A stretch of DNA of 21,600 nucleotides, from positions 1-21,600 of IMG/VR virus record IMGVR_UViG_3300035682_000217; one strand, 5' to 3'. The notes under the pieces are model-generated. The model was not told the origin of the DNA. It did not search any database and saw nothing but the letters and a program-made list of their open reading frames with translations. This stretch comes from a virus. Numbering within the stretch: position 1 is the stretch's first letter; every line of letters starts with the position of its first letter. A program made the translations under genes and the position numbers. Below, piece by piece: positions 2,679 to 19,840 of the stretch.

Positions 2679-2703
2679 GCCTCACTTCGGTGGGGCTTTT
2701 TTT
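2679..2703 (+). terminator. Intrinsic terminator, duplicate of the one at 2150
   Basis: The same gcctcac-ttcg-gtggggc hairpin as at 2150-2167, here followed by seven T residues. It begins six bases after the stop of the 153-aa gene and separates it from the promoter of the MGKS/terminase operon. Confidence 0.8.
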
Positions 2704-2733: not shown

Positions 2734-2741
2734 TACATTTG
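2734..2741 (+). promoter_or_regulatory. Promoter -7 element TACATTTG for the MGKS/terminase operon
   Basis: TACATTTG matches TAnnTTTG. A TTG at 2715-2717 lies 16 bp upstream, slightly short of the usual 17-23. Transcription would start near 2748, giving a leader of about ten bases before the ATG at 2758. No other promoter or terminator was found between here and the terminase end at 7961, so this probably drives the whole 5-kb operon. Confidence 0.5.
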
Positions 2742-2757
2742 TCCTAAACATTTTTAT

Positions 2758-2886
2758 ATGTTAGGAAAGATGATGGGCATTGACCCTAAGATGCTTAAGA
2801 AGGATTACAGTAGTAAGAAAGTCAAGAAAGAAAAGACTACTAAGAATCCTATACCTAAAATTAAAAAAAGTGGCAGCAAAGGATAA
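2758..2886 (+). CDS. Small lysine-rich protein, array member 1
   Basis: A 42-aa reading frame starting MLGKMMGIDPKMLKKDY and ending KKSGSKG, very rich in Lys with no hydrophobic segment. It starts about ten bases after the expected transcription start and is therefore the first gene of the operon. A longer open frame from a TTG at 2780 overlaps it in another phase, but that frame's first 30 residues look like out-of-phase translation of this gene, so I prefer this one. It overlaps the next gene by 17 bases. Function unknown; the composition suggests nucleic-acid binding. Confidence 0.5.
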   Translation: MLGKMMGIDPKMLKKDYSSKKVKKEKTTKNPIPKIKKSGSKG

Positions 2887-3040
2887 GGCATATTACGACG
2901 CTATATCCAATATGGATAAAGACATTCGCAAGAACTATGCAGATGATGCAAGAAACAATGCGAACGATAACAGGGTCTTAAAGAAAAAGATTTGGGACTT
3001 ATATACAAAGGCGAAGTTCGCCACAACTCGTAAAAAATAA
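2870..3040 (+). CDS. Small basic protein with GTG start, array member 2
   Basis: A 56-aa protein from a GTG at 2870, preceded by attaaaaaaa, which is the A-rich context expected for Bacteroidetes translation. It reads (M)AAKDKAYYDAISNMDKD onward and ends KFATTRKK: a charged, mostly helical, basic protein. The frame is open upstream to 2780, but those codons overlap the preceding gene and look non-coding; an ATG at 2912 is a shorter alternative. The stop is followed by ATC and the ATG of the next gene, in the same reading frame. Function unknown. Confidence 0.5.
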   Translation: MAAKDKAYYDAISNMDKDIRKNYADDARNNANDNRVLKKKIWDLYTKAKFATTRKK

Positions 3041-3043
3041 ATC

Positions 3044-3478
3044 ATGGGAAAAAGTAGAGGTAAAATTGATGACAATGTTCCTAAGTCGGAAGCGTTTGTT
3101 AAAAAAAGCTTAAAGGAGAAGATTGTAGGCGCTTATTCAAAAGCTCTTGGCCGCATTCAAAAAGATGGCAAAGAGAAACATGATGTTATGTCAAAGAGTA
3201 GAAAAGAAAATGCTCTTCTTGGGGGGAAGGTAAAAGTAAAAACTGTCTCTGGAGGTCTTGCTAATAAAGAGAAGGTAAAGGTTGTCACGAAGTTCAAGAA
3301 GAATGGCGAAACAGTGACTAGGTCAAAGAAAACAACTGGATTACCGTTTATGAAGCAGAGAGAATATCAAGGCTCTACAATTAACAAAGAAGGCAAGATG
3401 ACAAAAAGTTATTCTGCTATCAATCCATTAGGGGCGTTTAAGAAAAAGTCAATGATAACAAAAAATAAATACGAATAA
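3044..3478 (+). CDS. MGKS-family basic protein, array member 3
   Basis: 144 aa, of which about 33 are Lys. The N-terminus MGKSRGKIDDNVPKSEAF begins with the MGKS..GK module shared by the genes at 3662, 4144 and 4567. Residues about 25-40 (EKIVGAYSKALGRIQK) correspond to the G/EK-(I/L)-x-x-A-(F/Y)-x-K helix seen in the same relatives. The centre (about 62-100) is a Val/Lys alternating stretch that could be a beta-hairpin, and the C-terminus ends KNKYE, like the KNKY ending of the next gene. No enzymatic motif, signal peptide or membrane helix is present. It starts three bases after the previous stop (TAA-ATC-ATG). The protein is likely to bind nucleic acid, judged only by charge. Confidence 0.65.
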   Translation: MGKSRGKIDDNVPKSEAFVKKSLKEKIVGAYSKALGRIQKDGKEKHDVMSKSRKENALLGGKVKVKTVSGGLANKEKVKVVTKFKKNGETVTRSKKTTGLPFMKQREYQGSTINKEGKMTKSYSAINPLGAFKKKSMITKNKYE

Positions 3479-3481
3479 ATC

Positions 3482-3658
3482 ATGGACAACTGTAATCATT
3501 TAATTCAAAAGGGAAACCGTGTATACGGTGGCTCAGCTAACAAAGGCAAGAAGTTCGGCGCTTATGTAGAGAAGAATGTATCTGTAGATACAGACGCAAA
3601 CAAATACGGAAAAGCTTCCGGTGGAAAGAAAATTTTTAAATCAAAAAATAAATATTAA
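3482..3658 (+). CDS. Small basic protein, array member 4
   Basis: 58 aa, starting MDNCNHLIQKGNRVYGG and ending FKSKNKY. It is Gly/Lys/Asn-rich, with a single Cys at residue 4. It lacks the MGKS start but shares the KSKNK C-terminal module with the 17-codon remnant at 4085, including 19 identical bases, and KNKY with the gene at 3044. The junction pattern is the same as its neighbours: TAA-ATC-ATG in front and TAA-GTC-ATG behind, in the same reading frame. Function unknown. Confidence 0.55.
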   Translation: MDNCNHLIQKGNRVYGGSANKGKKFGAYVEKNVSVDTDANKYGKASGGKKIFKSKNKY

Positions 3659-3661
3659 GTC

Positions 3662-4081
3662 ATGGGAAAAAGTACAGGAAAAATTAACGTAAAAAAGAAG
3701 GACGTTGTTCCAACAATGACTCCAAAAAAAGCTGAAGCAATTAAGGTTAATTTGCCGTCTCAGCGAGCACAATATCAATTAATCTCACCTCAAATGTCAA
3801 TGGAACAGATTGGCAAAAGAATGTCAAAGAGTGGGCCACGCAAGAATCTTCGTGAGACAGCTGCTGTTGTAAAAGGAAAAATTCAAAAGGCATTTAAAAA
3901 AATTGGAAAAAATTCAGATAAAAAACCAAACACTCCTTCGGCTCTGCCAATAACTGAAAAACAAGCCATAAGGGCAGCTTCTGATGGAAAAGCGTCTGGT
4001 AAAGAATTTTTTACAAACGACTACTACGATTCAAGTTTGTATACAAGTAGAAAAAGGTATGCACTAAAACGTAAAAATTAA
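3662..4081 (+). CDS. MGKS-family basic protein, array member 5
   Basis: 139 aa, starting MGKSTGKINVKKKDVVPTMT. Residues about 15-80 are a close relative of residues about 39-110 of the gene at 4567: VVPTMTPK, then an MS..-Q-(I/L)-G element, then MSKSGPRKNLRETAAVVKGK and a G-K-x-Q-x-A helix. The central block is encoded by 57 bases identical in both genes. The last 50 residues (KNSDKKPNTPSALPITEKQA onward, with a YYDSSLYTSRKRY segment) are not shared. It is strongly basic with no hydrophobic segment. It lies in frame with the three preceding genes. Function unknown; duplication within the array is clear. Confidence 0.65.
   Translation: MGKSTGKINVKKKDVVPTMTPKKAEAIKVNLPSQRAQYQLISPQMSMEQIGKRMSKSGPRKNLRETAAVVKGKIQKAFKKIGKNSDKKPNTPSALPITEKQAIRAASDGKASGKEFFTNDYYDSSLYTSRKRYALKRKN
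3820..3876 (+). repeat. 57-nt perfect direct repeat, copy A
   Basis: Identical base for base to 4797-4853. It encodes MSKSGPRKNLRETAAVVKGK inside the 139-aa gene at 3662. The flanking codons differ, even where the protein is still similar. Confidence 0.9.
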
Positions 4082-4084
4082 ATT

Positions 4085-4138
4085 ATGCCACGCAAGATTA
4101 AGCCCATAGACTTCACTCTTAAATCAAAAAATAAATAG
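4085..4138 (+). pseudogene. 17-codon chimeric remnant (MPRKIKPIDFT...)
   Basis: The frame reads MPRKIKPIDFTLKSKNK and stops at TAG. Its first 33 bases match the first 33 bases of the gene at 5100 with one difference (MPRKIKPIDFT in both). Its last 19 bases before the end of the TAG region (4119-4137) are identical to 3636-3654, the C-terminal end of the gene at 3482. It is therefore best explained as the product of recombination or deletion between array members, leaving only head and tail. It may still be translated, since it follows the previous stop by three bases (TAA-ATT-ATG). Most likely non-functional, but a 17-residue peptide cannot be excluded. Confidence 0.6.
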
Positions 4139-4143
4139 AAATC

Positions 4144-4563
4144 ATGGGAATGGGAAAAAGTACAGGACTTATAGGAAAAATTCAGACCGCATTTAATAAA
4201 GCAAAAGATAATTCTGCAAATAAAAAAATGGCTAAGGTTGAATCTATCGACGACAATAAGAGATTGAATCGTATCGTTGAAAGAAGATATGTGAAGATGG
4301 ATAAGAAATATGAGCGTGCCGCTGGAAACGAAAAGAAAATGGCCAAGGTTGATAAAAAATATGGCTACAACTATGAGGGTGCAAAAGCCGCTGGTATCGT
4401 AAAGGATGAGACGGGCTACATGGGTTCCATAGGAAACGAAGGGCTTATACTTAAAGGCAAGAAGCATCCATCAATGATTAAGACTAGAAAAGTCGAAAAA
4501 CTTCTTGGAAATAAAATAGTAAGAAAAGGGGGTAATTTATATACAGTTCCAAAAAAATCATAA
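4144..4563 (+). CDS. MGKS-family basic protein, array member 7
   Basis: 139 aa. The start MGMGKSTGLIGKIQTAFNKA contains a duplicated atggga, so the conserved MGKS module actually begins at the second ATG (4150); either could initiate. GKIQTAFNKA is the shared helix module. The rest (KKMAKVESIDDNKRLNRIVE, then KKYERAAGNEKKMAKVDKKY) contains two KKMAKV elements and is probably a charged helical region, followed by a Gly-rich part ending LYTVPKKS. No catalytic motif is present. The next gene starts three bases after the stop (TAA-ATC-ATG) in the same frame. This gene is out of frame with the earlier members because five, not three, bases separate it from the remnant at 4085. Function unknown. 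Confidence 0.6.
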   Translation: MGMGKSTGLIGKIQTAFNKAKDNSANKKMAKVESIDDNKRLNRIVERRYVKMDKKYERAAGNEKKMAKVDKKYGYNYEGAKAAGIVKDETGYMGSIGNEGLILKGKKHPSMIKTRKVEKLLGNKIVRKGGNLYTVPKKS

Positions 4564-4566
4564 ATC

Positions 4567-5100
4567 ATGGGAAAAAGTAAAGAAAGAAAGTTCAATGTTC
4601 CAAGAGAAGATAAGGACTTAAAATTAAAAAAAAGAACATCTGAACCTCTTGGATACGCTAATTTGGCACTTAAGAAAAGAAAAATGGTTGTTCCAACAAT
4701 GACTCCAAAGCCAGCTCAAACGATTGAAAACTATCGCCCTTCAGAAGAAGCATCTTATGGTGGAGCTAAAAAATCTATGAGTCAGCTTGGTAGAGAAATG
4801 TCAAAGAGTGGGCCACGCAAGAATCTTCGTGAGACAGCTGCTGTTGTAAAAGGCAAATTGCAAAATGCTTACAACAAAGCTACTGGAAGAAAGACAGTAT
4901 CTATGGAGATGGATGGTAAGACATTTACGGGGACAGACAAAATGGGTATGCGACGTGGGGTTACTAAGGTTAGCAATCCAACTGCAGGGTCACGTAAAGT
5001 TGTTGATGTTTACAATGCAGGCGGTAATCTCAAGCGTCAGCGTATTGTAGATAGAGATGCTTCAGGTAAGAAGATTCAAGTTATCAAAAGAAAAGGATAA
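4567..5100 (+). CDS. MGKS-family basic protein, array member 8
   Basis: 177 aa, starting MGKSKERKFNVPREDKDLKL. Residues about 39-110 repeat the domain of the gene at 3662: VVPTMTPK, MSQLGREMSKSGPRKNLRET, AAVVKGKLQNAYNKATGRK. The C-terminal 65 residues (TVSMEMDGKTFTGTDKMGMR and on, with VVDVYNAGGNLKRQRIVDRD) look like a small beta-rich domain not present in the relative. The protein is strongly basic and ends VIKRKG. Two nucleotide repeats, of 57 and 23 bases, are shared with 3662-4081. Its stop overlaps the next start (TAATG). A nucleic-acid-binding or virion-internal role would suit the charge but is not shown. Confidence 0.65.
   Translation: MGKSKERKFNVPREDKDLKLKKRTSEPLGYANLALKKRKMVVPTMTPKPAQTIENYRPSEEASYGGAKKSMSQLGREMSKSGPRKNLRETAAVVKGKLQNAYNKATGRKTVSMEMDGKTFTGTDKMGMRRGVTKVSNPTAGSRKVVDVYNAGGNLKRQRIVDRDASGKKIQVIKRKG
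4797..4853 (+). repeat. 57-nt perfect direct repeat, copy B
   Basis: Identical to 3820-3876, lying 977 bases downstream in the 177-aa gene. A second shared stretch of 23 bases (3704-3726 and 4687-4709, coding for VVPTMTPK) lies upstream of each copy. Confidence 0.9.
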
Positions 5101-5342
5101 TGCCACGCAAAATTAAGCCCATAGACTTCACTTGCAAAGCGCCTAAGTCTTCATTCAAGGATGAGGTAAAACAGCCTTCTCCTAAGTACTCTACGGATGA
5201 GTATGTGGACTATAACCGTAAGAACAATGGATTGGCTTTCCAAGGTCGTCTCATTGACAAAAATCTTGATGCAATGTTTAAGGCCCCCGGGTCTGACATT
5301 AAATCAAATATGAATAATAGTAAAAAATCTAAAAAGAAGTAA
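5100..5342 (+). CDS. Small basic protein MPRKIKPIDFT, array member 9
   Basis: 80 aa. The first eleven residues, MPRKIKPIDFT, are duplicated in the remnant at 4085. The middle (SPKYSTDEYVDYNRKNNGLAF) is more neutral, and the tail (NNSKKSKKK) is lysine-rich. There is one Cys at residue 12. The start ATG overlaps the previous stop by one base, and the next gene starts one base after its stop, so translation is coupled. Not recognised; the lack of the MGKS module sets it apart from its neighbours, but its charge and setting are the same. Confidence 0.6.
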   Translation: MPRKIKPIDFTCKAPKSSFKDEVKQPSPKYSTDEYVDYNRKNNGLAFQGRLIDKNLDAMFKAPGSDIKSNMNNSKKSKKK

Positions 5343-5343
5343 A

Positions 5344-5877
5344 ATGGCAATGATGCAAAAAATGACACTTGGGCAAGCGGCTGGAGGCCCCGGTGGAAAG
5401 CTTAAAAAATTCATCAAAAGAAAAGTACAGGGGTACAAGATGAAGCAAGCTCAGAAAAAAATGGATAAAGTTGGTGGTGAATACAAACCAACAGGAGGAG
5501 GGGTTCCCAATGGAACACCAATGAATGAGCGTCAAGCTAATCGTCAAGAGAAAAAAGCTGTTCGTGAAATTAACCGTGGTGTAAGAAAAGACAATCGTGT
5601 TAAGAAAATGGGCGAGTCAAATAGAGCAGCAATTTCTGGAAGCACTGGAATTAAAAAGATAGATAATTACAGCACAAAGGTTAATAAATATAGCAACCCG
5701 GGCTTATACAAAGTAGTTAAAGCAGTGAGAAACATTGGTGACTCTTTCGAGCAAATGGGAATGAATATTAAAAAGAACAGAGGACGCAGACGTGCAATGG
5801 CAGATGCGGCTGGACCAACAAAACGAAACAAAGACGTTATGGTTTGTGGGGCAGGAAGCAAAGATTGTCAAAAATAA
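5344..5877 (+). CDS. Basic protein upstream of terminase, array member 10
   Basis: 177 aa, starting MAMMQKMTLGQAAGGPGGKL. A Gly-rich start is followed by a highly charged helical stretch (KFIKRKVQGYKMKQAQKKMD), a Gly/Pro linker, a second charged helix (RQANRQEKKAVREINRGVRK), a mid region and an Arg-rich KKNRGRRRAMADA segment; the C-terminus has two Cys (VCGAGSKDCQK). It lacks the MGKS module. It ends 17 bases before the chosen terminase start. The position directly before TerL is where small terminase subunits often lie, but no helix-turn-helix DNA-recognition domain is apparent, so I do not assign that role. Confidence 0.6.
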   Translation: MAMMQKMTLGQAAGGPGGKLKKFIKRKVQGYKMKQAQKKMDKVGGEYKPTGGGVPNGTPMNERQANRQEKKAVREINRGVRKDNRVKKMGESNRAAISGSTGIKKIDNYSTKVNKYSNPGLYKVVKAVRNIGDSFEQMGMNIKKNRGRRRAMADAAGPTKRNKDVMVCGAGSKDCQK

Positions 5878-5894
5878 AGACTAAAATAGACCGC

Positions 5895-7961
5895 ATGGGT
5901 TTTGATTTATTTCAAGACAATATCGGTTCAAAGGGCGTGCTTACACATGAGTGGAAGCCAAACCATGAAGAGTTTGAATATCCAAAAGAATTTGTAAATT
6001 GGATAGACAGCATTAACTCAGGATGGCAAAACAAATTAAAGTTCAAGCCCTTTGACTTATATTGCAAACAAGCAGACCTCTGGATGGAGGATAAATCTGT
6101 GATATTGGATTACGATAACGAGGAAGACCAAACCGATTGGCTCTTTACGGAAATCCAACGCTGTAAAGACAACACTCTTTACTTCTGTAATAAATACGGA
6201 TACATAAAAGAAGACCGTTCAGAGAATGGTATGCTTCAGTATAAGGCGTGGGAGGCTCAAATGGTTCTCTTATTCCTATTTGACTGCGGATACTCTATGA
6301 TGATTGGCAAGGCTCGTCAGATTGGTTTTACCACTACGATGTGTCTAGCAGGAATGAAGCGTGTAAACCTCAACAAATCGTATTTCATTAAGTTCGTTAC
6401 CCACTCAAAAGATAAGGGTATAGAAATCTTCCGTGATAAGGTAAAGTGGACATACACCAAGATTCCTGACTACATGGCTCAGGAGGTTAAGAACTGGACT
6501 GACCAAATTATGAACTTCGACAAGAAGGGGGACAGAAAAGGTCGTGATGAAGGTGGAGGCTCCCGATTCCAAGTAGATAGCCCAGCTATAGACTCAATCA
6601 ATGGTGGTTCTCCATCTGCTGTATTTGTAGATGAGATTGGTTTGTTTGAAATATTTGGCGAGATGATGCGTGAGGGTCGTCCTGCATTATTTAAGTTTAA
6701 CCCGGAAACTGGAAAGATGACTATGCAGCAGCAGTTCATCGCATGGGGTACGGGTGGTGAAATGGACAAAGGAGGTTCTGTGTTTGAGGCAGAGTTCAAG
6801 ATGTGTCTACAACAATGGAGAGAAAAGAACTATCAGTACGGAATCATACCCATATTCTTTAACGCATATGCACGAAGAGGGGTTACGGATAGTCACATTC
6901 AGAATGAAAGAAAAGCATATTTAGCATTAGAGGGTACAAAAAAGGGTGAATCTGCAAAGGTTCAGTTTCATCAGCACTACCCTATTACTATAGATGACAT
7001 GTTCATCAGAAAATCACGGACATTGTACCCAATTCACGCTTGTAATGTTCGACTAAATGAAATATATGGAAAAGATGTTCCTATTGAGTATGGATATTTT
7101 GAGCCAATCCTCGATTTATCTCAGCCAACTCCTGACCTCATTACTGATTACAAAATTACTGGAGCAAGATGGGTAAAAACTGACGCACGAGAAGACGTAT
7201 CAACATCGGCTATTATCATACACCACCCGCCACACGATGAAATATGGAAGAATCGTTGGTATCAAGGGACTGACCCCATCAACTCAGAGACAGGTCACTC
7301 CATGATGTGTAGTGCAATATGGGACGCACACACAAATAGCGTGTCTTCAGTAGTATTCCATCGTGACAGGAAGTTTAAATTCACCTATCTTCAAGTCTTA
7401 TTGCAGAGTTTGTACTACGACCAACAGAAAAGAGGTGGTGTTAAGGAGCTTGTAGAGAATAATATCGGGGATATGCACGTTGACTTCCAAGAGATGCATG
7501 GATTCAAGAATAAATTCACCGCAAATTCGCAGCTTCCTGAGTACTTACAGACCTTTGGTGGTAAATGGTTCGGAATATCAAATAAAACGAACACAGCGCC
7601 TCGTATAATGGCTAAAACGGAAGAAATGATTGATTCCTATGGAAGCAATATAGATGTTCCGTGGCTATGGGAGCAATTAAAGACGTTTGTAGAGAAAGAT
7701 TTGAAGTCAACGACCAGTCATAGGCAGACAAGATACCAAGCATCCGATTCACGATACGATTATGATGATGCCATCTTTGCAATTACCTTTGCATACATAA
7801 ATGCAATATCACATGCCAAGTATGACCCTGAGAATATCAAGGGAGAAGGCTCAGATAAGAAAGTTGTCGTAAGATTTGTCCAATGTAAAGAGACAGACTA
7901 CAGAATGAAGCGTGCTAGAGTAGATAAAGAGACTGGTAAGGTGCTTAAGATTCTTGATTAA
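5895..7961 (+). CDS. terL: Terminase large subunit (packaging ATPase-nuclease)
   Basis: 688 aa. It pumps DNA into the procapsid through the portal and cuts it. ATPase motifs: Walker-A-like GKARQIGFTT (about 138-147, the RQxGxTT variant usual for terminases), Walker B AVFVDE (242-247, with Asp246 and catalytic Glu247) and coupling motif GTGG (285-288). RNase-H-like nuclease motifs: Asp460 in YQGTDPI, Glu521 in ELVENN and Asp624/625 in DYDDAIFA. All are in the family order and spacing, so it is intact. I chose the ATG at 5895; the frame is open back to a TTG at 5844, but that stretch overlaps the preceding gene. It ends the plus-strand operon and overlaps the convergent minus-strand gene by 17 bases. 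Confidence 0.93.
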   Translation: MGFDLFQDNIGSKGVLTHEWKPNHEEFEYPKEFVNWIDSINSGWQNKLKFKPFDLYCKQADLWMEDKSVILDYDNEEDQTDWLFTEIQRCKDNTLYFCNKYGYIKEDRSENGMLQYKAWEAQMVLLFLFDCGYSMMIGKARQIGFTTTMCLAGMKRVNLNKSYFIKFVTHSKDKGIEIFRDKVKWTYTKIPDYMAQEVKNWTDQIMNFDKKGDRKGRDEGGGSRFQVDSPAIDSINGGSPSAVFVDEIGLFEIFGEMMREGRPALFKFNPETGKMTMQQQFIAWGTGGEMDKGGSVFEAEFKMCLQQWREKNYQYGIIPIFFNAYARRGVTDSHIQNERKAYLALEGTKKGESAKVQFHQHYPITIDDMFIRKSRTLYPIHACNVRLNEIYGKDVPIEYGYFEPILDLSQPTPDLITDYKITGARWVKTDAREDVSTSAIIIHHPPHDEIWKNRWYQGTDPINSETGHSMMCSAIWDAHTNSVSSVVFHRDRKFKFTYLQVLLQSLYYDQQKRGGVKELVENNIGDMHVDFQEMHGFKNKFTANSQLPEYLQTFGGKWFGISNKTNTAPRIMAKTEEMIDSYGSNIDVPWLWEQLKTFVEKDLKSTTSHRQTRYQASDSRYDYDDAIFAITFAYINAISHAKYDPENIKGEGSDKKVVVRFVQCKETDYRMKRARVDKETGKVLKILD

Positions 7962-8307
7962 AGTCTAAGAAGTACTGATTGCGCTGTACTTTGTCTTTAT
8001 TGAACCCTATGTCTTTGTGTTCCCATACAACACCGTGTCTATTGTTCTTTACCTCTTTAAATATGTGTTGATTGTTTAAGAAGTATTTGAGTTCTTTCTT
8101 TCCTAGCTTCTTAGTTGAAAGATTCTTGTACATCACACGGTTGTCTTCCCATGTTTTGTTATCGTTATACCAGTATAGGTAGTATTCTATTTTTTTCTTT
8201 TCATATTCAAATGCCGCTGTGATATAACATTTCAGTATAAAGTGATGAGTACCATTGTCAATCACTTCTACAATCTTGTTGCTAGAGTACTTAGAAGATG
8301 TAGTCAT
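7945..8307 (-). CDS. Hypothetical protein, minus-strand cluster
   Basis: 120 aa from the ATG at 8307 (context actcaaaatg). It is rich in Tyr, Trp, Lys and Asn: strands such as THHFILKCYITAAFEYEKKK and EYYLYWYNDNKTW suggest a mixed alpha/beta fold, and the C-terminal half (KKELKYFLNNQHIFKEVKNN) is basic. No family recognised. The start overlaps the nuclease gene by 17 bases, so the two are probably co-translated. The frame is open upstream to 8337, but the longer start lies deeper within the nuclease gene. Its 3' end overlaps the terminase 3' end. A CAAATATA (TATATTTG on this strand) at 8400-8407 could be an internal promoter. Confidence 0.55.
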   Translation of the reverse strand: MTTSSKYSSNKIVEVIDNGTHHFILKCYITAAFEYEKKKIEYYLYWYNDNKTWEDNRVMYKNLSTKKLGKKELKYFLNNQHIFKEVKNNRHGVVWEHKDIGFNKDKVQRNQYFLDFNQES

Positions 8308-9040
8308 TTTGAGTCGATAAATTAAGAACAAGTTCAACCTCTTCGTCTAAATCCTTAGTCTTTATGACCTTGTAGTTGTCGTTGCTATCGTTAATCCAAC
8401 AAATATATGATTTTCCAATTCTTAAATTGGTGTTTTTTTCTCTTATTTTTTTATAGACTCCTAGTTGGAGTGAATAAGTGTTGTACTCACATTCGGCAAG
8501 ATGCTCAAGCCCATTGGTCATCTTGTTCTTGTATTTACTGAACGTGTTAATCTCCTTGTTTGTCTTGTAATCCCATATCTGAAGCTCACTATCCTCAACA
8601 TTGTAGAACAACTTGTCAAGCATTCCGCACACCCTTAAATCAAGGTCGCCAACAATAAGCTCTGACTTTATTAACAATAGCTTGTTGATATAATCTTTGT
8701 AGAAATTATCAACCATCCACGTCAAATTCTGTGCTCCAGTGCTTTTATCTACATCGTAATGTTTATTTGAGAATAGTAGTTCAGCGTATTTGTGAACCTC
8801 TGTTCCTTTGGATGCTGATGCGTCCCTGATGTTCTCCCACTCTTGAATTACGTCTGCGGCGATTAATCCGTTTTTCGTTGCATATCTTGAGGCGATTATA
8901 TCGGTCTCAAATGGCTTTTTAAATTTAGAGAGAAGTGTAGTAGTGGAAGTGCATCTTAGTCCGTTGTAGAAATAAGAATGGTCTGATTCATCAAACAAAA
9001 TTCCATTGAACTTACTCAACTCAGAGAAGACTTCAAACAT
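8291..9040 (-). CDS. PD-(D/E)XK nuclease, RecB/Cas4-like exonuclease
   Basis: 249 aa. It has the RecB-type nuclease motif set: GTEVHKYAE (79-87, metal-binding His83), GMLD (139-142, Asp142), WDYKT (156-160, the D-x-K pair Asp157 and Lys159) and the Q-x-x-x-Y motif QLGVY (192-196). Residues 17-27 (DESDHSYFYNG) and 31-45 are typical of the N-terminal part of phage members. Such enzymes are magnesium-dependent exonucleases used in phage recombination, host DNA degradation or end processing; no cysteine iron-sulphur cluster is seen, unlike Cas4. The gene starts two bases after the stop of the upstream 97-aa gene and forms an operon with it on the minus strand. Confidence 0.85.
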   Translation of the reverse strand: MFEVFSELSKFNGILFDESDHSYFYNGLRCTSTTTLLSKFKKPFETDIIASRYATKNGLIAADVIQEWENIRDASASKGTEVHKYAELLFSNKHYDVDKSTGAQNLTWMVDNFYKDYINKLLLIKSELIVGDLDLRVCGMLDKLFYNVEDSELQIWDYKTNKEINTFSKYKNKMTNGLEHLAECEYNTYSLQLGVYKKIREKNTNLRIGKSYICWINDSNDNYKVIKTKDLDEEVELVLNLSTQNDYIF

Positions 9041-9042
9041 AA

Positions 9043-9336
9043 TTACAGCTCTACGGACATAAACTCTTCCATCTCCTGAAGCAATGATTCTACAGCAACC
9101 TCTGCTAGAGCGTCATCTTCTGTGTGCGGTCTGAATCTATTGGCAAGAAAGAATTTGTACTTGCAATCATCGGTAAGCTCAATCTCTGAAAATTGATAGC
9201 CCATTGCCATGTGTTGCTTGGCAAGGTACTTTGCGTTTACCACTGTGTAGATTTCTCCCTTTTCAACCCAAAGGTGCGCAGGGAAGTCTGCGGGTCTTGC
9301 GTTTGCGTTAATGCATACTACTCTAAATGTTTCCAT
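9043..9336 (-). CDS. Small phage protein with VVCIN..RP motif, unknown function
   Basis: 97 aa, starting METFRVVCINANARPADFPA, with WVEKGEIYTVVNA following. The pattern V-V-C-I-N-x(3)-R-P-x(9)-W-(x)2-K-G-x-x-Y-T-V is one I recognise from many small hypothetical proteins of Bacteroidetes phages, probably a small beta-barrel, but I know of no assigned function. The C-terminal 30 residues are acidic (AEVAVESLLQEMEEFMSVEL). The frame is open to an ATG at 9378 (14 more residues), but those residues do not fit the family start and lie across the leader hairpin. It is the first gene of the minus-strand operon, about 106 bases from the expected transcription start. Confidence 0.65.
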   Translation of the reverse strand: METFRVVCINANARPADFPAHLWVEKGEIYTVVNAKYLAKQHMAMGYQFSEIELTDDCKYKFFLANRFRPHTEDDALAEVAVESLLQEMEEFMSVEL

Positions 9337-9347
9337 GTCTTTCAAAT

Positions 9348-9392
9348 AAAAAACCCCCACCCTTCTGTGATACGGCACATAAGAGCAAGGGT
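9348..9392 (-). terminator. Attenuator-like hairpin and T-run in the minus-strand leader
   Basis: On the minus strand accctt (9392-9387) pairs with aagggt (9364-9359). This is followed directly by five G and six T residues (9358-9348), then the start codon at 9336. Inside the 22-base loop a smaller gtg/cac stem is possible. The layout is that of a terminator placed inside a leader, upstream of the gene it would control. The stem is short and the loop long, so confidence is moderate. Confidence 0.35.
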
Positions 9393-13454: not shown

Positions 13455-14621
13455 ATGCCAAATATCTTTGAAAAAGAAGTTGAAGCTGCGTCAGGTCAAA
13501 TGGAGTACGATGACTCATTTGATGCGTCAGGATTAGACGCTGAATCGCAGGAACAACTTAGACAAGTTGAGGCTTTAGCTAGAATGGATGAGTCCTTCGC
13601 TAATTCCCAAGAGTACCAAGACTTGATGAAAAGCTTGAATTCAAGCCGTCAAGCAGCATCGAAAGATAACGATGATGATGAGGATGAGTATGATGATGAA
13701 GAGGAAGAAGTAGACCCGGAGGATATCTTTGGGGTTATGAAGACTCAGAAGCAGAAGGAAGTCCAATTAACCTTTCAGCCCACAAAGGAGATGATAGGTT
13801 TCTTAAATAATCATTATGGAATCAAAGATGCCTCTACGTTCTTTTCATCGGTAGATACTTGGAGACAGCAAGCACAGCAGGGTTCTGAAATTGAGAAGAA
13901 CTTTGATGCACTTACTGCTGACCTTCAAGCATTACCACCGGAGATTAAAACTGCTGTGGAATTGTGGGCAAATGGCGACGACCATATGGCTGCATTTGAA
14001 ATGACGGAAAGACTGGACTTCTCATCTGATTTTGCAGAGCAAGATGTTGAGAGCCTCGTTCAGCACTATTTGCCTGAAGAGTACGACGAGTTGGCTGAAG
14101 CCTATGAAAATGGTGAAATCGACGACGAAGAACTTGAAGACAAAATGATTTTGTTAGCGAAGACAACAAGACGACTGTTCTCGGGAGAGAAACAAGCGTT
14201 AGATGAAGAGCGTGAGGAGTTCCTCGAGCGTCAGAAGAATGAATTTCAGACGATGAAGAAGAGCGCACTCCTTTCCGCAGATAATCTAAGTAAGGCTTAC
14301 CCTAACTTCAGTAAATCCGAAGTATCAAAAATTCGGAGCATCTTGGTTGAGGGGAAGGTGGACAGTCTGTTTATGAAGCCCGATGGGTCGTATAACGATG
14401 ATGCTGCAGAGCTAGTCGCATATGCGGTTTATGGCAAGAAAATGTTGGATTCGGTAAGGAAAGTTGCCGAGAGGTCCGGTGAAAGTAAGGCGAATCAGAA
14501 GATAGTTGATTCAAGTCCTAAGTCAGTCAGAAAGCAGCAATCATCTGGAACGATGAATCCTGCAGGAATGGAAGGCTATGGTCACTTGAGTGGAGTATTC
14601 AAAAATGACCCTTACGCTTAA
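13455..14621 (+). CDS. Scaffold-like acidic protein
   Basis: 388 aa, strongly acidic in its first half. Residues about 71-90 are almost all Asp/Glu (DNDDDEDEYDDEEEE core). The rest is predicted helical with heptad-like stretches, e.g. 215-265 (EEYDELAEAYENGEIDDEEL onward, EEREEFLERQKNEFQTMKKS). The C-terminal 45 residues are basic and disordered (SPKSVRKQQSSG), ending HLSGVFKNDPYA. An acidic helical protein with a basic C-terminal tail, encoded between portal and major capsid protein, is the classic description of a tailed-phage scaffolding protein: the tail binds the capsid shell and the protein is lost before or during packaging. The assignment rests on composition and position. Confidence 0.7.
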   Translation: MPNIFEKEVEAASGQMEYDDSFDASGLDAESQEQLRQVEALARMDESFANSQEYQDLMKSLNSSRQAASKDNDDDEDEYDDEEEEVDPEDIFGVMKTQKQKEVQLTFQPTKEMIGFLNNHYGIKDASTFFSSVDTWRQQAQQGSEIEKNFDALTADLQALPPEIKTAVELWANGDDHMAAFEMTERLDFSSDFAEQDVESLVQHYLPEEYDELAEAYENGEIDDEELEDKMILLAKTTRRLFSGEKQALDEEREEFLERQKNEFQTMKKSALLSADNLSKAYPNFSKSEVSKIRSILVEGKVDSLFMKPDGSYNDDAAELVAYAVYGKKMLDSVRKVAERSGESKANQKIVDSSPKSVRKQQSSGTMNPAGMEGYGHLSGVFKNDPYA

Positions 14622-14650: not shown

Positions 14651-15889
14651 ATGTCATTGTACAACGACAATTCAACGAAGTTCTCGAACCAGAACATTAA
14701 CTCCGTAGGTTCAGAGTATGCTTCATTGTACGGCCACGATATTTCGTTGCTAGTACAAAAACTTACTAACCGAGCTATCTTTGATGCTGCTCCACAGCAG
14801 TTCATGGACTTGAAGCTCCTTAACATGGTTCCTGCTGAGCAAGTGAATTCTGACGAATTCTTCTATCAGGAAATGGGTTATCAGCGTGAGCCACTTGTTG
14901 CTACTGCAGCTTCTGCAGCGGTTTCTTGGCCTACTACACAAACTGTGTCTATTGCATCTGTAGATAGCATTTCTACTAACACAATCATCTCTTACCCTAA
15001 CGGTCAGAAAGGTAGTGTTACTGCTGTTGACACATCTTTGTTGCAAATCACTGTTTCTCCTTACAACGGAGATACTTTGCCAGCAGTTGCTATCGGTGAA
15101 GTTCTTGCTAACGTATCAACTGTTGACCACGATGGTTCTGAAGGTTTTGCTCAGTACTTCCGTGCTTCAACTATCGAGCGTAACAACTACATTCAGTTGT
15201 TCAACAAAGCTATCCGCTACTCAGAGGTTGAGCTTCACAAGTTGAAGAACATGGGTACAACTTCTAACTTCCTTGAAATGGAGCGTAATGCGATGTTTAA
15301 CCAACACCGTATTGACCTTTCTAACGCATTCTGGACAGGACAAAAAGGTGAAGTTATCACTCAGAATGGTACTCCTGCTAAAACAACTGGTGGTGTCTTC
15401 ACTGCTATGCTTGAGGCTGGTTCTCCAAATGCACTTGCTACGTCAGGTACATTGGTTGATGCATTCGAGGATATGATTCTTTCTTCTGAATATGGTGAGT
15501 ATGGTGCTGCTCGTATGGCGTACATGACTCCTCGTATCCACCGTATGCTTTCATTGGCTTACAAAGAAGAATTGACTCGTTACGCACCAAACGACGAAAT
15601 CGCATTGTTGAACTTGAAAGAGGTGAACATCGGTTCTTCTCGTATCGTTCTTGTTCCTTACAAGCGTTTTGAAGATGCTGCATCATTCCCTGGTTCTTTC
15701 GCTAACCGAATCTGTATCTTAGATATGAAAAATATCAAGCGTACACAGCTTTGGGGTGAGCGTTCTGGAGACACTTTGAAACTCGAAGATGGAGTTCCGA
15801 AGCGTTACGGAGATGTATGGGTTGACTGTAACATGGGAGTTAAATTCCATAACCCACTTGCTTGCGCATACATTGATATTCCAATGTAA
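14651..15889 (+). CDS. Major capsid protein
   Basis: 412 aa, of the size and composition of an HK97-fold major capsid protein. The N-terminus (MSLYNDNSTKFSNQNINSVG) is polar and probably the N-arm. Residues about 95-155 form a Thr/Ser/Val-rich beta insertion. Residues 168-215 (RASTIERNNYIQLFNKAIRY) look like the E-loop/spine helix area, and the C-terminus (DVWVDCNMGVKFHNPLACAY) like the P-domain strands that end such proteins. The codon use is strongly biased to the same set as the 276-aa gene, consistent with very high expression. It follows the scaffold and is followed at once by a strong terminator. The fold is inferred; no structure comparison was made. Confidence 0.8.
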   Translation: MSLYNDNSTKFSNQNINSVGSEYASLYGHDISLLVQKLTNRAIFDAAPQQFMDLKLLNMVPAEQVNSDEFFYQEMGYQREPLVATAASAAVSWPTTQTVSIASVDSISTNTIISYPNGQKGSVTAVDTSLLQITVSPYNGDTLPAVAIGEVLANVSTVDHDGSEGFAQYFRASTIERNNYIQLFNKAIRYSEVELHKLKNMGTTSNFLEMERNAMFNQHRIDLSNAFWTGQKGEVITQNGTPAKTTGGVFTAMLEAGSPNALATSGTLVDAFEDMILSSEYGEYGAARMAYMTPRIHRMLSLAYKEELTRYAPNDEIALLNLKEVNIGSSRIVLVPYKRFEDAASFPGSFANRICILDMKNIKRTQLWGERSGDTLKLEDGVPKRYGDVWVDCNMGVKFHNPLACAYIDIPM

Positions 15890-17523: not shown

Positions 17524-18234
17524 ATGACATATAGATATTTAGTCTACGATTTAGACAAGAACTTTAGTCAGGCATTCGATGATGCCGACTTTACGCTGAA
17601 TCAAATCATGTACTGGGTAATGGTTGTGTCTAATAGATTGCGCACACAGCATTATTTATCAACAAAGTCTGACTTATTTGTTTCTACATTCAGTAGCGTT
17701 GCCGTGCAAACAGATGCAAACGGTAGAAAGTACATAGATTTACCGTCACAAATAATGGACTTGCCTAACAATTTAGGTGTAGTTTATATTACATATAACG
17801 TCGACACATGCAAATGCGAAGGGCCTAACTTTGCTCAAGTGTGGTTTTCACCAACAAACATTGGTTCAGTTCAACATTTGTATCTTGATGAGTATACTAA
17901 GCCAAGCGTTAAAGTACCATACTTCTATCGTGTAGGGCAATCTGTTGATGGGGTATCTGTAAATAGAATTTACTTGGTTGGTGTAGAATGTATAAAAATT
18001 GAAGACGTAGAAATAGCCATACGTTCAACATTGGACCCGCAGACCATTTGTAACCTTGATGAAGAGGTTAACTTGCCTGACGAATTGATACAAGAATTGA
18101 TGATGCAAGTCTTACAGCTAGGTAGATTTGTTATGTTGATGCCTACTGAAAACACCAACGACGGTGAAGATGGTGGAGAACTTGATAATCAAATGTACGC
18201 AAATAGAGCTATTAATTTACCTGACGCTTCATAA
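17524..18234 (+). CDS. Putative neck/ring protein 2
   Basis: 236 aa. It has an N-terminal helix (FDDADFTLNQIMYWVMVVSN), then a beta-rich body with a Cys pair (DTCKCEG, about residue 95). The C-terminal part (LDEEVNLPDELIQELMMQVL, QLGRFVMLMPTENTNDGEDG) has the 'lipid-like' pattern of a helix ending in an acidic tail found at the C-terminus of podovirus ring proteins. Position between two similar-sized neck candidates supports the assignment. The role would be to stack beneath the portal and join it to the tail hub. No enzymatic motif is present. The next gene starts 14 bases after the stop. Confidence 0.5.
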   Translation: MTYRYLVYDLDKNFSQAFDDADFTLNQIMYWVMVVSNRLRTQHYLSTKSDLFVSTFSSVAVQTDANGRKYIDLPSQIMDLPNNLGVVYITYNVDTCKCEGPNFAQVWFSPTNIGSVQHLYLDEYTKPSVKVPYFYRVGQSVDGVSVNRIYLVGVECIKIEDVEIAIRSTLDPQTICNLDEEVNLPDELIQELMMQVLQLGRFVMLMPTENTNDGEDGGELDNQMYANRAINLPDAS

Positions 18235-18248
18235 CAAACACAAGAATA

Positions 18249-19022
18249 ATGACATCTCACGACTTTGTATCAGTAGACCACTTACTTGCTGAAATCACAG
18301 CTACAGTAAACGATGTAGAATTTAGAAATGGATTCAGCAAAGGATGGTATACATCTCGTATCCAAGATGCGATGCAAGAACTATCAATAGACACGTTTTG
18401 GCAGAAGATAACTCAAGACTTTGAGATGCCTACGAGCTGTCGTATTCAGATGCCAGAGAACACGTTTAACCTTCGTGAGATTTATCTATACAATGGGACT
18501 TTATGTAATCCACAGAGAACTCAAGTAGTATACTGGAAGCGATTGTTTGATAATAGTTACGATGGAACTGGGTACACGGCAAAGGTAAAAGATGACGGTA
18601 GTAATGCTGCCGACTTGTTTCAGCCGAATCAGCGATTGATGCAGCATAACTTGCAAGGATTTTATGGCCCTAAATACTACTATAACATTAGTAGCGACGG
18701 AGTGGTCATGTTTAGCACGGAGTGTAAAGAGTTTCCATATGTACGAATGAGATTTAATGGTATGGGTGTTCCTAATGGGGAGCTTCCTATCATACCACGA
18801 TTCTTTGAACGTGCAGTTGTTGACTATGTGGAAGAGAAATTCTACAACGCAATGAAATCTCGTGACCCAAGAATGTATCGACCATTATGGATGGATGCCA
18901 CTACGAAGCTTAACGACCTAACTAACGGAAGTTGGAACAAGGCTAGAAAGAGAATTAAAGCCATGGATACCCGTGAGAAGGAGTCTATGGAAGAGTATAT
19001 CAGTTCAATGTATCATAAGTAA
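18249..19022 (+). CDS. Putative neck/ring protein 3
   Basis: 257 aa. Residues about 10-50 (LLAEITATVNDVEFRNGFSK and SRIQDAMQELSIDTFWQKIT) are helical. The middle is beta-rich (MPENTFNLREIYLYNGTLCN, VVMFSTECKEFPYVRMRFNG), and the C-terminal helix (VDYVEEKFYNAMKSRDPRMY onward, NKARKRIKAMDTREKESMEE) is long and basic. The helix, beta body and C-terminal helix pattern is shared with the two preceding genes, and I recall similar proteins as ring components in crAss-like phages. The stop overlaps the start of the next gene (TAATG). Confidence 0.55.
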   Translation: MTSHDFVSVDHLLAEITATVNDVEFRNGFSKGWYTSRIQDAMQELSIDTFWQKITQDFEMPTSCRIQMPENTFNLREIYLYNGTLCNPQRTQVVYWKRLFDNSYDGTGYTAKVKDDGSNAADLFQPNQRLMQHNLQGFYGPKYYYNISSDGVVMFSTECKEFPYVRMRFNGMGVPNGELPIIPRFFERAVVDYVEEKFYNAMKSRDPRMYRPLWMDATTKLNDLTNGSWNKARKRIKAMDTREKESMEEYISSMYHK

Positions 19023-19300
19023 TGGATAAGCCTAAAATTCTTGTTCGCTTAACCTCTCAGTTAAGAGAGAAAGGAGATAAAAATGCTTATTCAAATGCAT
19101 TAGGCATTTTACGCAAAAATGGAGTAATAGAGCCTGATTCTCTTAAGTTAACTGAAAAAGGAAAAGTAAGGGATAAAATGAGTGCGGAAGAACGTGCTAT
19201 AGAGCGTAGAGCAAAAAATTCTAACAATGACCCAGAAGACTACTCTTACGACCCAAAGACGAATCAAGCAACACTAAAATATGGCAGGAAAGTTAAATAA
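19022..19300 (+). CDS. Small basic phage protein, KILVRLTSQLREKG family
   Basis: 92 aa, starting MDKPKILVRLTSQLREKGDK. The run of K-I-x-V-R-L-T-S-Q-L-x-x-K-G, then LTEKGKVRDKMSAEERAIER and DPEDYSYDPKTNQATLKYGR, matches a family of small proteins I recognise from many marine and Bacteroidetes phages. Family function is unknown; the composition is basic and helical. It sits after the neck genes and before the large tail protein, and is coupled to the upstream gene by TAATG. A role as a virion-internal or tail-assembly protein is possible only by position. Confidence 0.65.
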   Translation: MDKPKILVRLTSQLREKGDKNAYSNALGILRKNGVIEPDSLKLTEKGKVRDKMSAEERAIERRAKNSNNDPEDYSYDPKTNQATLKYGRKVK

Positions 19301-19307
19301 GGAGTCA

Positions 19308-19619
19308 ATGCCGTGTAATAGCCCTAGACCAGCTAATGACGGCAAGCACAAACGTGTAGTAAAGGCTTGCGCTAACGGTCAAGAAAAGATTGTCCGATAC
19401 GGAGCTAAGGGATACAGCTCAAACTACAGCCCAGAGGCACGGGAACAGTATAGAAGACGACATGCAGGCGAAGGCAACTCTTCTAAGTTAACCGCAGGAT
19501 GGTGGTCGTTTCATGATTTATGGAGTAAAGGCTCTGCTGTTTATCGTGAAGGTAAATCATCGGGTAAAGGAGAACGATTTGCTAAGAAGGGAAAAGCAAT
19601 TAAAAGCGCAATGAAATGA
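19308..19619 (+). CDS. Small basic phage protein, VVKACxNG..RYGAKGY family
   Basis: 103 aa from the ATG at 19308. Core: RVVKACANGQEKIVRYGAKG, then YSPEAREQYRRRHAGEGNSS and LTAGWWSFHDLWSKG. This resembles a widespread phage family with V-K-A-C, R-F/Y-G, R-x-R-H and W motifs. A zinc site is not evident: the relatives' second Cys (after RRRH) is replaced by AGEG here. The frame is open to an ATG at 19281, which overlaps the previous gene by 20 bases; I prefer 19308 because family members start close to the M-x-C-N motif (MPCNSPRPAND). The C-terminal 30 residues are a Lys/Gly/Ser tail. The stop overlaps the next start (ATGA). Confidence 0.6.
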   Translation: MPCNSPRPANDGKHKRVVKACANGQEKIVRYGAKGYSSNYSPEAREQYRRRHAGEGNSSKLTAGWWSFHDLWSKGSAVYREGKSSGKGERFAKKGKAIKSAMK

Positions 19620-19840
19620 GAAGAAGTTTAATGGGCGTTGTAAACGCAGGGAAAGACTTAAGAAACAAGCCGACAAGTACACCTTCTCGTGGGCTTGGGG
19701 ATACTATAGCGAAATTCACTAAAGCGACAGGTATTGATAAAGTTGCTAAATTTGCAGCTAAGGCAGTGGGGGCTGAAGATTGCGGTTGTAATGGCCGAGC
19801 AGAATCTTTAAACAAATCCTTCCCATACAAAAACAAATAG
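19616..19840 (+). CDS. Small phage protein ending in CGCxGR..LNKxFPY
   Basis: 74 aa. The tail AEDCGCNGRAESLNKSFPYK is a signature I recognise from small proteins of flavobacterial phages, where a Gly/Lys helix (GLGDTIAKFTKATGIDKVAK) precedes C-G-C and N-K-x-F-P-Y. It is mostly helical and basic, with no membrane segment (an amphipathic helix at 30-50 is possible). The start at 19616 overlaps the upstream stop (ATGA); a second ATG at residue 6 is an alternative. Its stop is followed by one base and the ATG of the large tail protein. Function unknown; the location suggests a tail-assembly partner. Confidence 0.6.
   Translation: MRRSLMGVVNAGKDLRNKPTSTPSRGLGDTIAKFTKATGIDKVAKFAAKAVGAEDCGCNGRAESLNKSFPYKNK

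Follow-up and report, generated by a model that had tools for sequence, protein, structure and literature searches.

A conserved hypervariable locus of small lysine-rich genes with recombination scars, next to TerL in a group of related viral contigs

A run of small basic genes lies directly 5' of the terminase gene TerL in the viral record IMGVR_UViG_3300035682_000217, of which positions 1 to 21,600 were analysed (the window, 21,600 nt in full). The run, termed the island here, occupies 2758-5877 and consists of nine small basic open reading frames (ORFs) of 42-177 aa and one 17-codon frame, in a same-strand series that continues up to TerL. It spans the gap between a metallophosphoesterase-like gene (1195-2079) and TerL (5895-7961). 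Adjacent genes, named here by their start positions, mostly abut or overlap, and the stop codon of the last (5344) is 17 bp 5' of TerL on the identical strand. The nine proteins contain 16-33% Lys and 24-28% hydrophobic residues, with net charges of +7 to +30 and isoelectric points of 9.8-10.6; TerL and the portal are acidic instead, as are the putative scaffold and capsid proteins. An earlier note on this DNA had counted ten consecutive small basic frames before the terminase. Nine of these stand (at least 42 codons each), and the tenth (4085-4138) is instead a recombination remnant.

The repeated features described in that note are borne out. The four MGKS starts (3044, 3662, 4150 and 4567) share ATGGGAAAAAGT, of which the window has exactly four copies, all at these starts (0 expected, 100 shuffles). 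The motif [GE]K[IL]xxA[FY]xK is present in the same four proteins (when the nine were shuffled 2000 times, mean 0.002 proteins, maximum 1). The stretch of about 70 residues said to be common to two proteins corresponds to about 61-77 residues shared by 3662 and 4567 (E 3.7e-21, 58%), and the shared KNKY ending is found in 3044 (as KNKYE) and 3482 (as KNKY). Enzyme motifs and membrane helices are absent, as judged from composition and the lack of a Pfam match, and the possibility of an enzyme or membrane protein in the island was dropped on the same grounds. Profile searches of the nine proteins and of the island proteins of relatives against Pfam and PHROG produced matches that were very weak or at chance level only. 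The description of an array of shuffled lysine-rich modules, in the same direction as TerL and outside recognised families, is upheld. MGKS as the defining feature of the locus is not, as this start is limited to one close clade.

TerL matches 171 stretches in the viral collection, and the best 80 of the 171, all uncultured viral contigs, were analysed as relatives. TerL has no match in bacterial genomes, and the single match among isolate phages, in an Octadecabacter phage, is partial and covers about 94 residues. Wherever a relative has a complete interval, it carries small lysine-rich ORFs at the same place and on the same strand, between the winged helix-turn-helix (wHTH)/metallophosphoesterase genes and TerL. 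The 55 complete intervals are 455-3819 bp long with 2-10 genes, the window's own being the longest, and net charge is at least +3 in 209/224 of their ORFs (mean Lys 20%). Mean gene-family overlap (Jaccard) is 0.96 at TerL DNA identities of at least 99.5%, 0.59 at 90-97% and 0.23 at 75-80%. As this overlap drops with TerL identity while the charge persists, the presence of basic ORFs is what is constant and their identity is what varies. In two relatives (L065 and L068), larger genes are seen between the wHTH gene and the island (355 + 219 aa in L065, 345 aa in L068). A single-protein scan for viral relatives of 3662 found none; tblastn of 4567, 5344 and a protein with module M2 (Table 1) against isolate phages also found none, in a search where the low-complexity filter may hide lysine-rich matches. 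No publication describing such an island was found in the literature searched. The lineage is one without isolates in the collections searched; the kind of locus, a hypervariable accessory-gene locus of phages, is already known.

Iterated profile searches among the island proteins delimit at least eight modules, M1-M8, that recur alone and in differing fusions (Table 1). The fusions found are M1+M2, M1+M6, M3+M5, M3+M8 and M4+M5, and M4 and M5 are also found alone. Each module matches 6-30 distinct proteins, against a mean of at most 0.15 in shuffled proteins, a contrast that rules out a composition effect and is not an independent test, the profiles being built from the same proteins. At least one of M1, M2 and M7 is present in 44 of 45 distinct intervals, and these three persist down to about 80% TerL identity; no single module is universal, and many island frames are clade-restricted. 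Start tags also differ, with MGKS in the close clade and M[NS][LI]K[AS]K[IL] in others. M5 is found behind differing N-termini in the close clade and behind MDKPKKLKELVSNAYNKA in distant relatives. No module was found outside the island in the genome stretches of relatives that were searched.

Shuffling is by recombination, and its scars lie at gene starts and ends. The 4085-4138 frame opens with a 21-nt exact copy of the 5100-gene start and ends as a 3482-type gene, and from 4119 it is identical over 32 nt to relative L081, where the end of the 3482-type gene is followed by another MGKS gene. Relative L002 carries a second chimera (2252-2302), in which the start of that contig's own MPRKI gene is joined, at a shared GCAAGA, to the end of an L005-type gene. 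Genes 3662 and 4567 are identical over a 54-nt tract (flanks match 28/63 and 20/33), while relatives differ from it at 3-13 sites; the tract looks like a recent conversion within the genome. The closest relative of 3662 is L002_2303, which has M4 only, and that of 4567 is L001_4668, which has M4+M5. The simplest reading of the arrangement is that unequal exchange linked two island types end to end, and this would explain why the window's island is the longest. Tandem-repeat expansion was considered and dropped, as the copies are whole genes or modules. Shuffling may be driven by a phage single-strand-annealing recombinase: an Erf-like annealing protein is encoded in G001, a 64-kb close relative (E 2.9e-30), in a region that the window does not reach. 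Comparison among relatives confirms the original observation and makes it stronger: the locus is conserved and hypervariable, with readable recombination scars. Taken alone, a rapidly recombining island is very probable.

Table 1. Features of the island and its flanks in the window, and the recurring modules
Feature	Position	Strand	Remarks
Terminator-like hairpin	2679..2696	+	5' of island; pattern scan; second copy of repeated terminator
Candidate Bacteroidetes-type promoter element TACATTTG (TAnnTTTG)	2734..2741	+	Consensus match only
42-aa basic protein, module M1	2758..2886	+	M1 in 30 distinct island proteins
56-aa basic protein from GTG 2870, or 42 aa from ATG 2912	2870..3040	+	Kept in close clade; dN/dS 0.03-0.16 from 2912
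144-aa MGKS protein	3044..3478	+	Body common to L005_5555
58-aa basic protein MDNCNH...KNKY	3482..3658	+	Orthologues in L005, L081; dN/dS 0.04-0.13
139-aa MGKS protein	3662..4081	+	Module M4; C-terminus unique to window
54-nt conversion-like tract	3821..3874	+	54/54 identical to 4798-4851
17-codon chimeric remnant MPRKIKPIDFTLKSKNK, recombination scar	4085..4138	+	Start as 5100 gene, end as 3482/L081-type gene
137-aa MGKS protein (139 aa from ATG 4144)	4150..4563	+	Body unique to window
177-aa MGKS protein	4567..5100	+	Modules M4 + M5; predicted beta-meander, residues 108-176
80-aa basic protein MPRKIKPIDF	5100..5342	+	In 6/6 close-clade island types; dN/dS 0.03-0.14
177-aa basic protein	5344..5877	+	C-terminal two-cysteine module M6; predicted disordered
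TerL, locus anchor	5895..7961	+	phrog_5989, E 6.7e-8
M1			MxGIDPxLIKKAY; the 2758 gene in window
M2			KHEKxESKK
M3			Start helix M[NS][LI]K[AS]K[IL]xxA
M4			VPTMTP...MSKSGPRKN stretch; common to 3662 and 4567
M5			C-terminal domain of 4567
M6			C-terminus of 5344 family, DAxGPTxRNKxVxVC..CQ
M7			Separate 57-59-aa protein; distant relatives
M8			C-terminal PTLRPTSVSVS stretch

Pairwise ratios of nonsynonymous to synonymous substitution (dN/dS) are 0.03-0.16 in the 5100, 2912 and 3482 families, 0.12-0.21 in M5, 0.22-0.40 in the 5344 family, 0.19-0.59 in M4 and 0.03-0.05 in TerL; all are rough values, as several dS are near saturation. The ratios show that the persistent genes are real, translated proteins under purifying selection, M4 and 5344 more loosely. 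They bear directly on one alternative, that the island is a nursery of young near-neutral genes where recombination fuses short frames in an A-rich region and the products are lysine-rich by composition alone. Scars such as 4085-4138 do show new short frames arising, many frames are clade-restricted, and AAA/AAG codons follow from A-rich DNA. However, the low ratios in the three families and in the beta module M5, the persistence of M1, M2 and M7 to the limit given above, and the confident prediction of the beta domain leave this explanation very improbable for the island as a whole. It is largely refuted for the persistent genes and possible for singletons (the 4150 body and the 3662 C-terminus).

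The beta domain is seen in an AlphaFold2 model of 4567 made from the family alignment. The first half of the protein is predicted to be disordered, a helix at 87-106 is the helix shared among the MGKS proteins, and residues 108-176 form six antiparallel strands in a beta-meander (predicted local distance difference test score, pLDDT, about 90). Foldseek found no match to the model at E 0.001 or better in the PDB and BFVD. The best VIA-align result is a DUF1089 protein (2h1t, Z 7.4, 58 residues, root-mean-square deviation 2.5), with lipid-binding barrels and coat proteins of single-stranded RNA phages close behind; these candidates were read as having a common sheet arrangement only, and not as fold relatives. 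The 5344 product is predicted to be mainly disordered with low-confidence helices (mean pLDDT 51.6).

We tentatively favour the view that the island proteins are basic, non-enzymatic and made late, that they bind nucleic acid, and that they are possibly internal to the virion, with an organisation like that of the internal proteins of T4. Strong positive charge, disorder, the absence of enzyme motifs and the turnover of gene content fit proteins that touch DNA or the scaffold and are possibly enclosed in the head. The island proteins would be made late together with TerL; late expression is likely because TerL belongs to the late class in crAss001 (PMC10136315). Their charge may make them bind to phage DNA or to the very acidic scaffold-like protein (13455-14621, net charge -43), and some could become trapped in the head and be delivered together with the DNA. 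A recruiting signal may lie in the short start tags that they share, with the variable bodies acting on changing host targets.

Several points weigh against this view. An S78-family prohead protease was not found in seven related genomes, in a search whose control worked, and a cleaved capsid-targeting signal is therefore not supported; this negative rests on S78, as the Peptidase_S77 search had no working control. The small ORFs of Cellulophaga phage phi14:2 that lie just 5' of its TerL-like gp105 are annotated as hypothetical, while many other phi14:2 proteins are structural proteins backed by mass spectrometry; these ORFs are not uniformly basic and showed no homology to the island. The start bases in common could simply be preserved by their use in recombination, without a targeting role. 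A bolder version of the favoured view, in which the start tags of this uncultivated crAss-related lineage are both capsid-recruiting signals and recombination sites, and payloads are continually re-fused next to the packaging-motor gene and reach the next host as cargo, is decidedly unlikely as a whole.

The constant position beside TerL, with basic proteins and only 17 bp between 5344 and TerL on one strand, would also suit packaging accessories that stay in the cell, aid TerL and condense or present DNA without being ejected; the small terminase may be one of them, or may be the wHTH protein. This protein is a RepL-like 183-aa product (644-1195, PF05732 E 1.3e-4) that follows an HNH endonuclease gene within 294-1195, an arrangement lying 5' of the island in relatives too, and it is a candidate small terminase. 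An HNH/wHTH order just upstream is common in terminase regions. A packaging part should track TerL, yet island content changes at 90-97% TerL identity, no module is universal and no helix-turn-helix is found in the island proteins with Pfam; we regard packaging accessories as rather unlikely. High turnover of gene content fits host-takeover or counter-defence proteins, made in the cell, unpackaged and kept diverse by an arms race, as do the small size, the lack of enzyme motifs and the faster change of M4 and the 5344 family than of TerL. The TAnnTTTG element that follows the hairpin (Table 1) could allow separate early transcription. Against this, the genes share the strand and run of TerL, uniform strong positive charge is atypical of diverse inhibitors, and TAnnTTTG is weakly enriched in the window (30 matches, 22 expected), making takeover proteins an unlikely account of the island.

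The phage is treated as a distant crAss/P22-portal relative, as judged by sequence comparison, with a genome of probably about 64-65 kb, and is not placed in Crassvirales. The portal matches P22_portal (E 5.7e-21), and its sole PDB match up to E 0.1 is the crAss001 portal gp20 (E 4.7e-7), a signature also common to P22-like portals. Window 17524-18234 has a weak match to CrAss_Ring_2 (E 6e-4, below the curated cut-off). Pairwise TerL similarity is faint (phi14:2 gp105 E 3e-5, crAss001 TerL 0.003), and tblastn with TerL matched no crAss-like record. A Bacteroidota host is only suggested, from the TAnnTTTG elements and the distant crAss relationship; the stretch of phage tRNA-Trp gave no exact host match.

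Around the island, a 153-aa acidic-looking ORF at 2211-2672 is absent from the intervals of close relatives and is flanked by near-identical terminator-like hairpins (2149-2178 and 2678-2707, 90%), with TATATTTG elements beside it at 2083 and 2179; 2149-2707 looks like a recently inserted cassette carrying its own signals. Three opposite-strand genes (7945-9378) separate TerL from the portal-scaffold-capsid run. In that run, the 412-aa product of 14651-15889, the major capsid protein by position, matches PDB 9in6 chain M, named major capsid of VP1 (E 2.3e-6). The putative ring/tail genes are followed by three more small basic ORFs (19022-19840), which form a second group. In this group, the product of 19281 has matches in roseophage SIO1, Pelagibacter phage HTVC106P and others, to proteins that are hypothetical or lack annotation (best E 6e-13), and it also matches phrog_220, minor head protein and DNA pilot. 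The equivalent of this group in G001 includes a DUF5872-like basic protein (L094 5371-5763, E 8.9e-6, narrowly missing the curated cut-off), which the window lacks at that place. G001 also encodes a 2844-aa protein (L093 7623-16157) on the strand of the structural genes, with no PHROG match.

Related viral contigs are numerous and keep an island of small basic ORFs in a single fixed position, yet no annotated family in the libraries searched covers its proteins. If the proteins are carried in the virion, the locus would list what a little-known phage group delivers, and protein delivery by crAss-related phages could be tested one gene at a time. If they are not, it still offers a clear example from nature of very short genes that recombine into new fusions and are under selection.

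Among known systems, the internal proteins of T4 are small, variable and injected, with common start signals, and IPI of T-even phages folds as a small alpha/beta protein (PMC9026906, PMC12373910). The T-even proteins IPI, IPII and IPIII resemble the island proteins in being small, basic, non-enzymatic, several per phage and poorly conserved among relatives; the island proteins match this trait in charge, length and gene-content turnover between close relatives. Both also have a short common N-terminal sequence ahead of divergent bodies; in the T-even proteins it targets the capsid and is cleaved by a prohead protease, and for the island tags a targeting role is putative. In contrast to the T-even case, no island protein matches a Pfam or PHROG family (no direct comparison with the T4 proteins was made), S78 was not found, the genes lie beside TerL in one run, the bodies are re-fused from modules, and the lineage is P22/crAss-like rather than T4-like. 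In Crassvirales, cargo proteins of 60-277 kDa (crAss001 gp45, gp46 and RNA polymerase subunits), whose genes follow those of the tail, are stored in head and tail (PMC10172136). The gp20-like portal and the weak CrAss_Ring_2 match mean that the virion here may be built alike; however, the island proteins have 42-177 aa and their genes precede TerL. Crassvirales also have genomes near 100 kb and a conserved structural block including an IHF-like protein; the longest relatives here, whose completeness is not established, are 60.6-65.7 kb. Clusters of about ten small genes just 5' of TerL are seen in crAss001 (gp9-gp18) and phi14:2 (gp106-gp116), but these have net charges of -9 to +13, are not uniformly lysine-rich and are partly annotated (HU, 10-kDa chaperonin, zinc finger). 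Rad52-like/Erf recombinases are tied to relaxed homologous recombination and mosaicism in phages (PMC3945230). The island is alike in its exchanges at short or diverged homology and in the Erf-like protein of the 64-kb relative, a link to the recombinase that we infer; it differs in that exchanges concentrate where very short genes start and end, yielding fused proteins.

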